Shown here: positions 8,115 through 49,452 of the stretch, piece after piece | Position numbering within the stretch: the first letter of the stretch is position 1 | Layout of the letters: each line of letters begins with the position of its first letter | Made by a program: the position numbers and the translations under genes | Notes under the pieces: model-generated | Told to the model about the DNA's origin: nothing | The model's database searches: none | Seen by the model: the letters and a program-made list of their open reading frames with translations, nothing else | Source: Amycolatopsis benzoatilytica AK 16/65 | GTDB lineage: Bacteria > Actinomycetota > Actinomycetes > Mycobacteriales > Pseudonocardiaceae | Length of the DNA: 64,000 nucleotides | Reading direction: 5' to 3' | Assembly (NCBI RefSeq): GCF_000383915.1 | Contig: NZ_KB912942.1 | Coordinates: 5,234,367 to 5,298,366, forward strand

Positions 8115-8165
8115 CCGTGAAGGGCCCCTTGAGGGCATCCAAGTCCCTGAAGGGGCCCTTCACGG
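8115..8165. repeat. Dispersed GTGAAGGG palindrome, copy 1
   Basis: Inverted repeat beginning CCGTGAAGGGCCCCTT and ending AAGGGGCCCTTCACGG, with inner arms GAGGG/CCCTG and the asymmetric core CATCCAAGT. It lies 82 bp after the sugar-operon stop. Related elements are at 10468, 15826 and 38415. It may form a strong hairpin but has no T-tract. Confidence 0.8.
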
Positions 8166-10445: not shown

Positions 10446-10467
10446 CCAGCGCCGCCGACCGCCGGTG

Positions 10468-10522
10468 GTGCGTGAAGGGAACATTGAGGGACTCTGATTC
10501 CCTCGATGTTCCCTTCACGCAC
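10468..10522. repeat. Dispersed GTGAAGGG palindrome, copy 2 (divergent)
   Basis: Arms GTGCGTGAAGGGAACAT and ATGTTCCCTTCACGCAC enclose GAGGG/CCCTC and a core ACTCTGATT. The outer GTGAAGGG/CCCTTCAC matches the other copies, while the next bases are AACAT instead of CCCCTT. It lies between the small membrane protein and the first symporter. Confidence 0.75.
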
Positions 10523-10579
10523 CGGCAACTCCCGGGAGAAGCCCGAGGGGTGCGCGGGGCCGGGCACGGGAGCAGCTGA

Positions 10580-15825: not shown

Positions 15826-15876
15826 CCGTGAAGGGCCCCTTGCCGGAATCCAAGTCCCGCAAGGGGCCCTTCACGG
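15826..15876. repeat. Dispersed GTGAAGGG palindrome, copy 3
   Basis: CCGTGAAGGGCCCCTTGCCG and CGCAAGGGGCCCTTCACGG flank the asymmetric core GAATCCAAGTC. It lies between the AhpD-like promoter region and the 3' end of the cyclophilin gene. The core is the reverse complement of that in copy 4. Confidence 0.85.
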
Positions 15877-19133: not shown

Positions 19134-19598
19134 ATGGACACCGAGCCCACCGCATCCGCGCTCAAGCCGTTCGTCACCGCGATCGACCACGTCGGCATCG
19201 CCGTGCCCGACCTCGACGCCGCGATCGCGTTCCACCGGGACCACTTCGGCCTGGAACTCGCGCACGAGGAGGTGAACGACGAGCAGGGCGTGCGCGAAGC
19301 GATGCTGCGCGCCCCGGGCGCCGCCGGCACCGAGACGATGATCCAGCTGCTGGCGCCCTCCCGCGAGGATTCGACCATCGCGAAGTTCATCGGCCGCAAC
19401 GGGCCGGGCCTGCAGCAGCTCGCCTACCGGGTGTCCGATGTGGACGCCGCGGCGGCCGCGCTGCGGGCGCAGGGGCTGCGGCTGCTGTATGACGAGGCGA
19501 AGCGCGGGACGTCGAACAGCCGGGTGAACTTCGTGCACCCGAAGGACGCCGGCGGGGTGCTGGTCGAGCTGGTCGAGCCGGCGGCGACCGGGCACTGA
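19134..19598 (+). CDS. mce: Methylmalonyl-CoA epimerase
   Basis: VOC-fold metalloenzyme interconverting (R)- and (S)-methylmalonyl-CoA in propionate metabolism; 154 residues. AIDHVGIAVPDLDAAI near residue 18 supplies the first metal His. QQLAYRVSDVDAA near 92 (usually HHIAY; here the His positions are replaced by Gln-Gln) and FVHPKDAGGVLVELVEP at the C-terminus complete the fold. The replacement of the second His motif is worth noting for metal binding. It is divergent from the thiolase-meaB operon and followed by a repeat array. Confidence 0.88.
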   Translation: MDTEPTASALKPFVTAIDHVGIAVPDLDAAIAFHRDHFGLELAHEEVNDEQGVREAMLRAPGAAGTETMIQLLAPSREDSTIAKFIGRNGPGLQQLAYRVSDVDAAAAALRAQGLRLLYDEAKRGTSNSRVNFVHPKDAGGVLVELVEPAATGH

Positions 19599-19615
19599 CG
19601 CACCCACCCCGACCA

Positions 19616-19784
19616 CCCCAATGCCACATTGGGTGCGTTGAGCCACCCCAATGTGGCATTGGGTGCATCCCAGGCACCCAATGTGGCATTCGGTGCATCC
19701 CAGGCACCCAATGTGGCATTCGGTGCATCCCAGGCACCCAATGTGGCATTCGGTGCGTTGAGCGCACCCAATGCCACATTGGGG
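19616..19784. repeat. Array of six palindromic units, exact 30-bp period
   Basis: Six hairpin cores spaced exactly 30 bp apart, with their central ATG at 19621, 19651, 19681, 19711, 19741 and 19771. Inner units read CCCAATGTGGCATTCGGTGC. The first and last read CCCAATGCCACATTGGG, a perfect 7-bp-arm palindrome. Linkers are near-identical (GTTGAGC or ATCCCAGG). It fills the space between the convergent epimerase and TetR genes. A second, four-unit array occurs at 47594. Not a CRISPR: linkers are conserved, not unique. Confidence 0.95.
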
Positions 19785-19815
19785 CGCTGCAGGTTCGGAG
19801 CCGCCGAGCGCGGGG

Positions 19816-19915
19816 GGCGCGTGAGGGAGCGGGGCGGCGCGTGAGGGAGCGGGGCGGCGCGTGAGGAACCGGAGTGGCGCGTCAGGAACCGGCGGGGCGC
19901 ATCAGGAAGCGGGGG
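19816..19915. repeat. Five 20-bp tandem repeats at the TetR 3' end
   Basis: Units start at 19816, 19836, 19856, 19876 and 19896. Units 1 and 2 are identical (GGCGCGTGAGGGAGCGGGGC) and the others degenerate progressively. The last unit contains the TetR stop codon, so the series looks like repeated copying of the gene's 3' end. The remaining non-coding bases between 19599 and 19901 show nothing else. Confidence 0.85.
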
Positions 19916-20495
19916 TGGGCGGCGCGCCCTTCGACGCCTTTGCCGACAGCGCGTTCGCCACGAACGTCAGTTCCCCGTCGAATTCCGCCGGCTGGTCGTC
20001 GCCCGAGTGCCGGGCGGTCGCGTGCCGGTGGCTGACCGCCCGGGCCAGCAGCCCGGACGCGTTGTCGATGTCCGGCCCGGCCAGCCGCCCGCCGGCCGCG
20101 GCCACGATCACCGACCGCATCAGCCGGACCAGCTGCTGGTAGCGGTCGGACAGCGCCTCGCGCACCACGTGGTGCGTGTCGGCCTCGCGCCACAGCAGGT
20201 GCGAGAGGCCCAGCGAACCGGTGAACCGGCGGTCGAGTTCGCCGACCAGCCGGCGCAGGGAACCCGCCAGGTCGCCGGGGACGACGACCGCAGCGGGTTC
20301 GATGCGTTCGTCCGGCAGCCGGTCGACCAATGCGGCCAGCAGGTCGGACTTGCGGCGGAAGTAGTAGTGGACCAGGCCCTTCGGGACCCCGGCGCGCTCC
20401 GCGATGCGGGACGTCGGGGTCGCTTCGAAGCCGGACTCGGCGAACAGCTCCTCCGCCGCGCACAGGATCCGTTCCTTCGCCGAGTCGTCGGTCAT
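19902..20495 (-). CDS. TetR family regulator
   Basis: 197-residue repressor-type protein. The HTH is at about residues 5-50 (ERILCAAEELFAESGFEATPTSRIAERAGVPKGLVHYYFRRKSDLL in total, quoted here only by its ends). Both the body, with HHVVREALSDRYQQLVRLMR, and the C-terminal effector domain are complete. Its 3' end lies in the 20-bp tandem repeats. The SPW-repeat membrane protein gene lies 88 bp upstream in the same direction. No target is evident. Confidence 0.9.
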   Translation of the reverse strand: MTDDSAKERILCAAEELFAESGFEATPTSRIAERAGVPKGLVHYYFRRKSDLLAALVDRLPDERIEPAAVVVPGDLAGSLRRLVGELDRRFTGSLGLSHLLWREADTHHVVREALSDRYQQLVRLMRSVIVAAAGGRLAGPDIDNASGLLARAVSHRHATARHSGDDQPAEFDGELTFVANALSAKASKGAPPTPAS

Positions 20496-38414: not shown

Positions 38415-38469
38415 GTCCGTGAAGGGCCCCTTGCCGGACTTGGATTCCGGCAAGGGGCCCTTCACGGAC
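38415..38469. repeat. Dispersed GTGAAGGG palindrome, copy 4 (perfect 24-bp arms)
   Basis: The left arm runs 38415-38438 and the right arm 38446-38469, perfect inverted copies around the loop CTTGGAT. The outer part is GTCCGTGAAGGGCCCCTT. The core is inverted relative to copy 3. It lies between the convergent MFS and hypothetical genes and may act as a terminator. Confidence 0.9.
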
Positions 38470-45207: not shown

Positions 45208-47589
45208 TTGAGCGTGCAGTCGGTCGAGCAGCGGATCGCCGAAGAGCTGGGGGTGCGCGAAGGGCAGGTCAAGGCCGCCGTCACGCTCCTCGACGAGGGG
45301 TCGACGGTGCCGTTCATCGCCCGGTACCGCAAAGAGGTCACCGGAGAGCTGGACGACGCCCAGCTGCGGACGCTCGAAGAGCGCCTGCGCTACCTCCGCG
45401 AGCTGGACGAACGCCGGGCCGCGGTGCTCGACTCGATCCGGAGCCAGGGCAAGCTGGACGACGAGCTCGAAGCGCAGATCCTCGCCGCGGACACCAAATC
45501 GCGGCTGGAGGACATCTACCTGCCCTACAAGCCCAAGCGGCGCACCAAGGCACAGATCGCCCGCGAAGCCGGCCTGGAGCCGCTGGCCGACGGACTGCTG
45601 AACGACCCCGCGACGGACCCGCAGGCGGCCGCCGCGGTGTTCGTGGACGCGGACAAGGGCGTCGCCGACACGCAGGCCGCACTGGACGGCGCACGCGCGA
45701 TCCTGGTCGAGCGGTTCGCCGAGGACGCCGACCTGATCGGCGAGCTGCGCGAGAAGATGTGGGCCGAGGGCCACCTGGCGTCCAAGGTCCGCGCGGGCAA
45801 GGAGACCGACGGGGCCAAGTTCTCCGACTACTTCGCCTTCTCCGAGCCCTACACCAAGCTCCCCTCGCACCGGATCCTCGCCATGCTGCGCGGCGAGAAG
45901 GAAGAAGTCCTCGACCTGTCGATGGAGCCGTCCGAACCGGTCGCCGAGGACGCCCCGCCGCGGGTCGGCCCGACCGAGTACGAGCAGCGCATCGCCGCCC
46001 GGTTCGGCATCAGCCAGCAGGACCGGCCTGCCGACAAGTGGCTCGGCGACACCGTGCGCTGGGCCTGGCGCACGAAGATCCTCCTGCACCTGGGCATCGA
46101 CCTGCGGATGCGGCTGCGCCAGTCGGCCGAGGACGACGCCGTGCGCGTGTTCGCCGCGAACCTGCGCGACCTGCTGCTGGCCGCCCCGGCCGGCACCCGC
46201 GCGACGATGGGCCTCGACCCGGGCTTCCGCACCGGCGTGAAGGTGGCCGTGGTCGACGCGACCGGCAAGGTCGTCGACACCCACGTGATCTACCCGCACC
46301 AGCCGGCGAACAAGTGGGACCAGTCGATCGCCGAACTGGCCGTGCTGGCCAAGAAGCACAACGTCGACCTGATCTCGATCGGCAACGGCACCGCGTCGCG
46401 GGAGACCGACAAACTGGCCATCGAGCTGATCAAGAAGCACCCGGAGCTCAAGCTCACCAAGGCGGTCGTGTCCGAGGCGGGCGCGTCCGTGTACTCCGCT
46501 TCGGCGTTCGCTTCGCAGGAACTGCCCGGCATGGACGTCTCGCTGCGCGGCGCGGTCTCGATCGCCCGCCGGCTGCAGGACCCACTGGCCGAGCTGGTGA
46601 AGATCGACCCGAAGTCGATCGGCGTCGGCCAGTACCAGCACGACCTGTCCGAGGTGTCGCTGTCGCGGTCGCTGGACGCGGTGGTCGAGGACTGCGTGAA
46701 CGCGGTCGGCGTGGACGTGAACACCGCGTCCGCTCCCCTGCTGACCCGCGTTTCGGGCATCACCACGTCGCTGGCCGAGAACATCGTGGCGCACCGCGAC
46801 AGCAACGGCCCGTTCCGTTCCCGCACCGCGCTCAAGGACGTCGCCCGCCTGGGCCCGAAGGCGTTCGAGCAGTGCGCCGGCTTCCTCCGCATCCCGGACG
46901 GCGACGACCCGCTCGACGCGTCCTCGGTGCACCCGGAGTCCTACCCGGTGGTCCGGCGGATCCTCGACCGCACCGGCACCGGCATCCGCGAGCTGATCGG
47001 CAACGAGCGCACCCTGAAGACGCTGAAGCCGGCCGAGTTCGTCGACGAGACATTCGGCCTGCCGACCGTCACCGACATCCTGTCCGAGCTGGAGAAGCCG
47101 GGCCGCGACCCGCGTCCGGCGTTCAAGACCGCGACCTTCGCCGAGGGCGTGGAGAAGATCGCCGACCTGAAGCCGGGGATGCGCCTGGAGGGCGTCGTCA
47201 CGAACGTGGCCGCGTTCGGCGCGTTCATCGACGTCGGCGTGCACCAGGACGGCCTGGCGCACGTTTCGGCGCTGTCGAAGAACTTCGTGAAGGACCCGCG
47301 CGAGGTGGTGAAGCCCGGCGACATCGTGAAGGTGAAGGTGCTCGAGGTCGACGTGCCGCGCAAGCGGATCTCGCTGACGCTGCGGCTGGACGACGAGCCG
47401 GGCGCCGGGAACAACCGCGGTGGCGGTGGGGGCCGGGACCGTGGCCAGGGCAGCGGCGGCCAGGGCGGCCAGGGCGGTCAGCGGCGGAATCCGCAGCAGC
47501 GCGGGGGCGGCGGCGGCCGGGATCGTCGTGACTCCGGAGGCAGCGGCTCGATGGCGGACGCGCTTCGTCGGGCCGGGTTCGGCAAGTAG
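45208..47589 (+). CDS. tex: Tex family transcription accessory protein
   Basis: RNA-binding Tex protein, 793 residues. It has the N-terminal helical Tex region ([17 protein letters not shown] near 31), a YqgF/RNase H-like domain (about 330-430, [17 protein letters not shown]), helix-hairpin-helix repeats (about 490-560) and an S1 domain near 650-725 ([20 protein letters not shown]). The tail is Gly/Arg-rich. TTG at 45208 is chosen because AGGAG lies 6 bp upstream; the GTG at 45214 is the alternative. It is followed by a palindrome array. Confidence 0.96.
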
Positions 47590-47593
47590 GACA

Positions 47594-47702
47594 CCCCAAT
47601 GCCACATTGGGTGCGTCAGACGCACCCAATGTGGCATTCGGTGCGTTCAGCGCACCCAATGTGGCATTCGGTGCGTTCAGCGCACCCAATGCCACATTGG
47701 GG
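47594..47702. repeat. Array of four palindromic units, exact 30-bp period
   Basis: Same family as the array at 19616. Cores are at 47599, 47629, 47659 and 47689 (central ATG). The first and last cores are CCCAATGCCACATTGGG; the two inner cores read CCCAATGTGGCATTCGGTGC. The linkers GTTCAGCG and GTCAGACG are conserved. It lies between convergent tex and the acyl-CoA dehydrogenase gene. Confidence 0.95.
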
Positions 47703-47736: not shown

Positions 47737-49452
47737 TCAGGGATTCATCTCGTAGGCGCCGGACAGATCCCGCACCAGCGCCCACACCCGGTCGAACCGC
47801 TCGCCGTCCACCACCGGCTTGCGCAGGCCGGACAGCACCAGCTCCTGTTGCTTCTCCGTCGAGCTCGGCTTGCCGTGCAGATCGACCGCGGCGAGGCTGA
47901 AGTCCTGAACCAGCACCGCGAACAGCTGGTCGATCAGGTCGTCGGCGACGCCGGTCAGCTCGGCTTGCTCCAGGATCAGCTGGCCGTACACCACGAGGGT
48001 GAACAGCTCGGTCAGCGCGAGCCCGAAGTCCAGGTCCTTCTGCTGCGCCTCGTCCGGCGTGGCCTCCGACAGCAGCCGCACCAGCACACCGGCCTGTTCG
48101 GCGAACAGCGCGACGTTCGGGATGTGCTTGGCGTTTTCGTAGGCCGGTTTCCAGTCGTGGAACCGGATCTTCGACAGCCCGCGCGCCGGGCCTTGGCGGA
48201 ACAGGAAGTCGTCGTCGGCCGCGTCGTCGCGGGTCGGGACCGGCGCGTACTCCTCCGGCGCGAACAGGTACGCGGGCATGAACTTCGCGATCAGCGCGAG
48301 GTTCACCGCGACGGTGCCCTCCAGTTTGGGCAGCCCGTCGATGTCGTTCTTCGCCATCGCCAGGTACGTGTCGGCCTCGAATCCCTTGGCCGCCACCACA
48401 TCCGCGACCAGGCCGATCACCTTCTGCGCCTCGGTGGTGACCTTCATCTTGGTGATCGGGTTGTACAGCAGGTAGCGGCGGTCCTGCTGGTTCGCCGAGC
48501 GGAAGTAGTCGACCGCACGGTCGGAGAACAGCTTCATCCCGTTCAGCCGCGCGTACGCCTCGACGAATTCACGGCGCACGTGCGGGAAATCGGTGACCGG
48601 GTTGCCGTACAGGATCCGGTTGTGCGCGTGCGTGATCGCCTCGTACAGCGAGTGCGTCGCCATTCCGATGCCGCCGAAGCACAGGTTGAACTTGCCGATG
48701 TTGACCGTGTTCAGCGCGGCGCTGAACGCTTCCGGTCCAGTGTGGAGGATGTCCTCGGCGCGCACCGGGTAGTCCTCCAGCCGGAACTCCGCCACGTACA
48801 TCTGCGACGGCACGACGTTCTTCACCACGTGGTAGTTCGGATGCTCGGAATCGGCGTAGAAGAACACGTACTGCTCGGGTCCTTCGACGCCCTCGATCCG
48901 GCCGAACACCGAAACCGTGCGGGCGCAGTTCCCGTTGCCGATGTAGTACTTCGACCCGGTGGCGCGGTAGCCGCCCTCGCCGTCCGGGGTGAGCACGAGG
49001 TCGGACGAGTAGATGTCCGCCCCGTGCTCCTTTTCGGACAGCCCGAACGCGCCGACGCCGCCCGCGTCCAGCGCCTCGGCGGCGCGTTTGCGGGCGGCTG
49101 CGTTCGCGCTCTGCCACACCGGGCCGAGGCCGAGGATGGTGACTTGCCACGGGTACCAGTAGTTCAGGCCGTAGAAGCCGAGGATCTCCGACAGCGCCGC
49201 GACCCGGCTGGTGTCCCAGCGCTTGTCCGGATTCCCCGCCGAGTCCGAGGCCGGGGTGAGGAAGGTCGAGAACAGGCCTTCCCGCCCGGCGAACTCGAGG
49301 AAGTCGGCGTAGAACTCGCGTTCGTGGTACGCCTCGGTCAGGCGCCGCTTGCCGCGCGCTTCGAACCAGTCGATCGTCGCCCGCAGCAGGCGCTGGGTCT
49401 CCGGGTCGAACTTCCGGGCGTCGTAGTCCCGCGGGTTCAGCAGCGCGCTCAT
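47737..49452 (-). CDS. Acyl-CoA dehydrogenase
   Basis: FAD-dependent acyl-CoA dehydrogenase-like protein, 571 residues, longer than the usual 380-400 and so of the large-type group. FGLSEKEHGADIYSSDL near residue 135, YIGNGNCARTVSVFGRI near 170 and the C-terminal helical domain (IGLVADVVAAKGFEADTYL near 345) are visible. GGAG 5 bp before the ATG supports the start. It is downstream of a serine hydrolase gene with a 12-bp gap; the two are probably co-transcribed. Substrate unknown. Confidence 0.88.
   Translation of the reverse strand: MSALLNPRDYDARKFDPETQRLLRATIDWFEARGKRRLTEAYHEREFYADFLEFAGREGLFSTFLTPASDSAGNPDKRWDTSRVAALSEILGFYGLNYWYPWQVTILGLGPVWQSANAAARKRAAEALDAGGVGAFGLSEKEHGADIYSSDLVLTPDGEGGYRATGSKYYIGNGNCARTVSVFGRIEGVEGPEQYVFFYADSEHPNYHVVKNVVPSQMYVAEFRLEDYPVRAEDILHTGPEAFSAALNTVNIGKFNLCFGGIGMATHSLYEAITHAHNRILYGNPVTDFPHVRREFVEAYARLNGMKLFSDRAVDYFRSANQQDRRYLLYNPITKMKVTTEAQKVIGLVADVVAAKGFEADTYLAMAKNDIDGLPKLEGTVAVNLALIAKFMPAYLFAPEEYAPVPTRDDAADDDFLFRQGPARGLSKIRFHDWKPAYENAKHIPNVALFAEQAGVLVRLLSEATPDEAQQKDLDFGLALTELFTLVVYGQLILEQAELTGVADDLIDQLFAVLVQDFSLAAVDLHGKPSSTEKQQELVLSGLRKPVVDGERFDRVWALVRDLSGAYEMNP

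Follow-up and report, generated by a model that had tools for sequence, protein, structure and literature searches.

Dispersed 30-bp hairpin arrays at gene 3' ends in Amycolatopsis and related genera: a REP-like family with a putative role in transcript ends

The window, a 64,000-nt stretch of the Amycolatopsis benzoatilytica AK 16/65 genome, carries two palindromic arrays that belong to a family of high-copy repeats with a strict 30-bp period. Arrays of this family lie at gene 3' ends and are enriched between convergent genes and depleted between divergent ones. On sequence, predicted folding and genomic context, we consider it somewhat probable that they are REP-like interspersed elements acting as bidirectional 3'-end or terminator structures that lack a U-tract.

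Two arrays between convergent genes

The features of the window are listed in Table 1. The first-pass annotation had described a six-unit array with an exact 30-bp period, end units carrying CCCAATGCCACATTGGG and a location between convergent genes shared with a second array. Period and end units were confirmed, and the flanking genes, called with a purpose-written script, are convergent at both sites. Inner units were said to carry CATTCGG, which is correct for units 3-5 of array 1, whereas unit 2 (19647) ends in CATTGGG. Array 1 starts 18 nt after the epimerase stop codon and ends 118 nt from that of the TetR-type regulator; for array 2 the distances are 5 nt to the Tex stop codon and 35 nt to that of the acyl-CoA dehydrogenase-like gene. 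When up to three mismatches were allowed, the core pattern matched 15 times in the window, every time within array 1 or 2. In 100 shuffles it matched 0.29 times on average and never more than 3 times, which excludes chance as the source of the arrays.

Table 1. Features of the window discussed in the text.
Feature	Position	Strand	Description
Array 1	19617..19783	.	Six 17-bp cores, 30-bp period; orientation -++++-
Array 1 units	19617 -, 19647 +, 19677 +, 19707 +, 19737 +, 19767 -		Spacing exactly 30
Array 2	47595..47701	.	Four cores, 30-bp period; orientation -++-
Array 2 units	47595 -, 47625 +, 47655 +, 47685 -		
Methylmalonyl-CoA epimerase gene	19134..19598	+	Gene call; NCBIfam TIGR03081, 131.8 bits (cut-off 114.95)
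TetR-type regulator gene	19902..20495	-	Gene call; Pfam TetR_N; convergent with epimerase
Tex gene (S1/HHH RNA-binding protein)	45214..47589	+	Gene call; Pfam Tex domains
Acyl-CoA dehydrogenase-like gene	47737..49452	-	Gene call; Pfam Acyl-CoA_dh_1; convergent with Tex
Second-family hairpins	8117-8163, 10472-10518, 15828-15874, 38419-38465		GTGAAGGG...CCCTTCAC, stem ~23 bp
Direct repeat	19812-19911		20 bp, GGGGCGGCGCGTGAGGGAGC-like, several degenerate copies

As RNA, array 1 is predicted to fold at -118.8 kcal/mol (z -8.4) and array 2 at -104.5 kcal/mol (z -11.4). No Rfam family matched the window at gathering score, and a scan of 19400-20100 returned no terminator-like site. Two main types of linker, gttgagc and atcccag, occur in array 1. 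The direct repeat of Table 1 follows immediately after this array.

Unit architecture

The 30-bp unit has the form 12+3+12+3, in which a 12-nt arm, ACGCACCCAATG, alternates with its reverse complement, CATTGGGTGCGT, with 3-nt centres between them. One centre is conserved (TGG or CCA); the other is variable and lies within the linker TGCRT-N3-AYGCA. The three-unit consensus folds into a single rod (-86.6 kcal/mol). The outer arm CCCAATG of end units is conserved at 98-100% per position, with a weak aGCGC consensus outside the end units. Arrays have one to seven units, three being commonest (79 of 120 arrays). As regards CRISPR arrays, the 13-nt linkers are palindromic and recurring and are not unique spacers. 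T content after 306 array ends was that of random sequence, giving no sign of a U-tract.

Spacing was 30 in 245 of the 251 intervals of 120 arrays (the remainder being 60 three times, 90, 29 and 21), and the cores held 430 substitutions across 471 units, so length changes are rare relative to substitutions, a rarity that has to be read with a unit finder that allowed substitutions only. Compensatory covariation found no consistent support across tests. In three-unit arrays the values for three kinds of pairing fell under the permuted one (same-unit z -7.8, facing z -4.0, mirror z -3.6), in part because orientations were mixed; outer-outer pairing gave z 1.8, two-unit facing z 1.9 and the junction classes z -1.7 (+-), 2.9 (++), 1.2 (--) and -0.5 (-+). 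The structural claim is therefore based on palindromic form, folding energy and context. Two further candidate features were discarded. The orientation of first and last units (+,- in 80 of 120 arrays) equals the prediction from independent ends, and the outer caps do not generally pair into a closing stem: their mean extension of 3.22 compares with 2.78 (sd 0.17) after swapping among 114 arrays, and L072 and L129 lead the excess.

The arrays could alternatively be palindromic 17-bp operators for a nucleoid or roadblock protein, or for gyrase, that form a barrier between converging genes. Thirty base pairs are about three helical turns, and gyrase binding has been proposed for REP/BIME elements. 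A core, CAATG-TGG-CATTG, that is almost invariant while linkers and caps differ between genera would suit such protein binding, as would the regular spacing and the inconsistent compensatory change. Nevertheless, core invariance may reflect recent copying, a search that covered PF01797 only identified no candidate protein, and arrays interchange with plain hairpins of unrelated sequence (see below), which points to structure. We regard a protein-binding array as improbable.

Distribution and copy number

The first-pass annotation listed uniqueness to the two loci of the window among the findings that would count against it; the genome of the window (G000, 8.70 Mb) contains 138 exact cores, against none for the reversed control. 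Copies are spread over the whole listed part of the chromosome (0.2-6.7 Mb) and are denser toward the side of dnaA, which lies at 7.11 Mb. With copies so distributed and placement following gene ends, a ter- or ori-specific site is unsupported, as is the chromosome-organising site envisaged in that annotation. A structured RNA, which it had also named, fits best, given the folding scores, the 3'-end placement and the interchange with ordinary hairpins.

With G000 counted, the exact core was matched in 10 of 150 genomes of the family and in 7 of 298 genomes of the order; all seven belong to the same family (7/54), and none of the 244 genomes from other families of the order matched. A looser pattern matched 52 of the 80 genomes of the genus, with at least 20 matches in 23 and at least 100 in 8; these counts are lower bounds, as the pattern misses arrays with mixed arms. 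Mixed-arm 30-bp arrays were present at all 15 places fetched from 10 genomes, the places having been picked from earlier translated or pattern matches. Thirteen of them have CCCAATG...CATTGGG outside and CGTTCGG/CCGAACG-type arms inside, and cores in which both arms are CAACG are rare. Among the matches listed, the family occurs in Amycolatopsis, Prauserella and Qaidamihabitans, the named hosts including A. nivea, A. dendrobii, A. jejuensis, Prauserella shujinwangii and Qaidamihabitans albus. Literature searches returned nothing on the family among the matches listed, where the core strings appeared only in papers unrelated by title.

Copy number within the genus ranges from 0 to 237 by the looser pattern, and among close relatives (~90% protein identity to the window) two genomes, G167 and G184, have only 9 and 11 matches, compared with more than 150 in others. 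Such variation would be expected of a selfish REP/MITE-like repeat that has no role and spreads by some enzyme or by recombination, a rival reading taken up below. An array in G167 (L139) appears decayed, and loss of an array-maintaining factor could be sought in G167 and G184.

Placement relative to genes

The catalogue comprises 134 arrays from 136 records, some of the loci being orthologous to one another. By gene context, 49 arrays were convergent, 49 tandem and 8 divergent; 4 lay within genes, and the 24 close to locus ends were left unclassed; the 424 array-free gaps of the same loci divided into 51 convergent, 232 tandem and 141 divergent (p = 1e-16). A similar pattern was seen in G000, where the first 100 listed of the 138 matches gave 13 convergent, 21 tandem and 3 divergent arrays and one inside a gene, against 11, 40 and 26 control gaps, respectively (p = 0.003). 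The region syntenic to the window, chosen independently of array content, was compared across 10 genomes using conserved gaps of at least 30 nt, and arrays were found in 8 of 46 convergent, 6 of 143 tandem and none of 88 divergent gaps. These conserved gaps contain 15 of the 22 array blocks of the region; the other seven have gene neighbours that differ from those of the window or of which at least one was left unmapped. Of 46 arrays in tandem gaps, 38 are closer to the stop codon before them (median 28.5 nt) than to the start codon that follows (111.5 nt), and in 25 of 49 convergent gaps both stop codons lie within 40 nt of the array. According to the selfish-repeat reading, copies persist at gene 3' ends because insertions are least harmful there, and depletion between divergent genes is what such harm avoidance predicts.

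The copies inside genes raise another explanation, namely that the arrays are coding minisatellites whose 30-bp period, equal to ten codons, mainly encodes the peptide repeat APNATLGASD. In-frame arrays are indeed present in nuoG, in an ABC-ATPase linker and in a glycosyltransferase/acyltransferase fusion, all in this one reading frame; in nuoG (L271-L275) the array encodes the NuoG linker in 5 of 16 aligned genomes, where it replaces a variable linker. However, only 4 of the 134 catalogued arrays (24 of them unclassed) lie inside called genes, the orientation of units changes and the four arrays give negative codon scores, which makes a primarily coding role very improbable. The NuoG of close relatives such as G157, G169 and G184 has an unrelated linker and is 14 residues shorter overall. 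Arrays within translated genes show that transcripts do not necessarily stop at an array, unless it is held open there by ribosomes.

Arrays and other hairpins in the same gaps

Were arrays to end transcripts, one would expect fewer other hairpins next to them. Between convergent genes, a strong hairpin outside the array was found in 9 of 50 gaps, compared with 32 of 54 array-free gaps (p = 2e-5), and the difference persisted after length matching (4/16 with an array, 23/36 without; p = 0.016). In tandem gaps, other hairpins were not rarer beside arrays (8/46 against 45/262).

Two orthologous sites were followed in loci fetched from 30 of 60 matched genomes each. At the Tex site, where a strong hairpin was defined as an inverted repeat above all 20 shuffles, 29 of 30 gaps contain one, the exception being L197. 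Four genomes have an array there: in G000 and G200 it is the sole repeat reaching the threshold, the G000 gap holding an additional 7-pair inverted repeat just below it, and in G169 and G159 it is accompanied by another long hairpin. The array is absent from G157, G184 and G190, which have a terminator-like hairpin flanked by A/T instead. Among the 30 gaps at the array 1 site, six have recognised units and one a decayed array, and some have a different hairpin or nothing; the called genes overlap in 15 of 30.

Harm avoidance alone predicts neither the scarcity of other hairpins in array-bearing convergent gaps nor the interchange of arrays with terminator-like hairpins at the Tex site. A selfish repeat devoid of any role seems to us unlikely, albeit the most plausible of the rival readings.

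The tandem gap after window gene 8 (10446-10579) harbours a 30-bp unit or array in 6 of 9 relatives, a diverged array or unit in G171, and gaps of 1 and 20 nt with no hairpin in G167 and G172, so that no hairpin is required after this gene. In the window, this gap contains one copy (10472-10518) of a second dispersed hairpin family, which is unrelated to the 30-bp arrays. Arms of the second family matched 336 times in G000, 605 times in G207 and 424 times in G169, and the family was matched in 22 of the 80 genomes of the genus. Its apparent strand polarity was discarded, as both arms were found and the effect came from forward-first listing.

Turnover of arrays

Comparison of unit number, as the first-pass annotation had suggested, revealed that orthologous arrays differ both in how many units they have and in how these are oriented. 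Behind window gene 8, for example, relatives have ++++-, -, ++-, +-+, + and -+-+-. In L025 and L092, whose flanks are ~95% identical, unit 2 of one is the exact reverse complement of that of the other, and linker 1 in one array equals the reverse complement of linker 2 in its counterpart, the remaining linker being mismatched. An inversion of an inner block would produce such a difference. In L052 and L089 unit order is unchanged.

The presence of whole arrays varies as well. The L063 array is missing from the orthologous divergent gap of L030, as a selfish repeat would predict, and in this single insertion pair no target duplication is visible. In A. nivea, arrays at separate loci have similar flanks of up to ~300 bp (L018, L028, L044, L048, L054, L055, L065, L088, L095, L104, L119, L123 and others), and since flanks are shared between loci these arrays are embedded in a larger repeat. 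In L140 (G157), two groups of units are separated by some hundred bases that have the ends GGTTTTCTCAGT...ACTGAGAAAACC; similar ends, ACTGAGAAAAC, adjoin arrays in L017 and L023.

Proposed role

In the reading we favour, a bidirectional 3'-end element, copies are polymers in which a 12-nt arm takes turns with its reverse complement, and an array transcribed from either side would form one or more long stems right after the stop codon, so that it could serve both flanking genes. It would most likely be a transcription terminator of the U-tract-less kind, at which RNA polymerase is presumed to stop, and/or a structure that defines the 3' end of the mRNA and shields it. Inversion and expansion may proceed through template switching or recombination between identical arms.

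More tentatively, and with appreciably less confidence, the arrays may be portable terminators: a RAYT-independent repeat would copy itself into gene 3' ends and take over bidirectional termination, the host terminator would then decay, and the array would go on to change as inner blocks invert and units are gained or lost, with the second hairpin family doing likewise in the same genomes.

If the favoured reading is right, these antibiotic-producing actinobacteria would owe part of their 3'-end architecture to mobile-like repeats with turnover from one related species to another, and terminator replacement by repeats would be directly observable. It would also raise the question of what lets a REP-like family multiply in the absence of RAYT, to which the movement of REPs has been attributed, and would offer compact two-way terminator parts.

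Comparison with known systems

REPs are described in PMC3733652 (see also PMC2817692 and PMC3116915) as short, high-copy palindromes found at 3' ends and in convergent gaps, with mixed cluster orientation and some intragenic copies. The 30-bp arrays resemble REP/BIME elements in each of these respects, being high-copy short palindromes at gene 3' ends and in convergent gaps, variable in orientation and in some cases intragenic. The RAYT transposase (PF01797) was detected in none of the 80 genomes of the genus, the search control being positive in 5 of 14 named genomes, and an unpaired GTAG tag was not conserved in the array caps or linkers read. The family thus differs from RAYT-REPs in having neither, and it forms a strict 30-bp polymer of alternating arms, whereas REPs are dimers. 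The sections of PMC3733652 on CGTC-tagged REPs describe elements with no dedicated transposase, an unpaired CGTC end tag, a stem of 8-9 and a loop of 4-5. The arrays share their placement and the absence of a dedicated transposase. However, CGTC occurs in many, not all, array linkers and lies inside the palindrome instead of forming an unpaired end tag, and the array has a loop of 3 and a core stem of 7 bp. The family is REP-like in form and placement and, by defining features, falls outside the RAYT-REP and CGTC-REP superfamilies.

Like MITEs, the arrays are short and non-coding, have inverted-repeat ends and vary in presence between relatives. MITEs are further characterised by target-site duplication and a parental transposon, and the single insertion pair (L063/L030) shows no duplication. 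Inspection by eye of the 25 largest gene clusters near arrays (870 called genes, 120 loci) recognised no transposase or parental insertion sequence.

Compared with a classical intrinsic terminator, the arrays have the hairpin and lack the U-tract. PMC8269248 reports that 353 of 535 structured 3' ends in Streptomyces clavuligerus have no U-tract, and PMC8355165 that hairpin clusters terminate transcription in G+C-rich bacteria; PMC1590033 and PMC6749651 also belong to the literature compared. The arrays resemble these U-tract-less (I-shaped) and hairpin-cluster terminators in placing one or more strong stems near stop codons with no U-tract. Known U-tract-less terminators are locus-specific, whereas the 30-bp arrays constitute one genome-wide sequence family with a fixed period.
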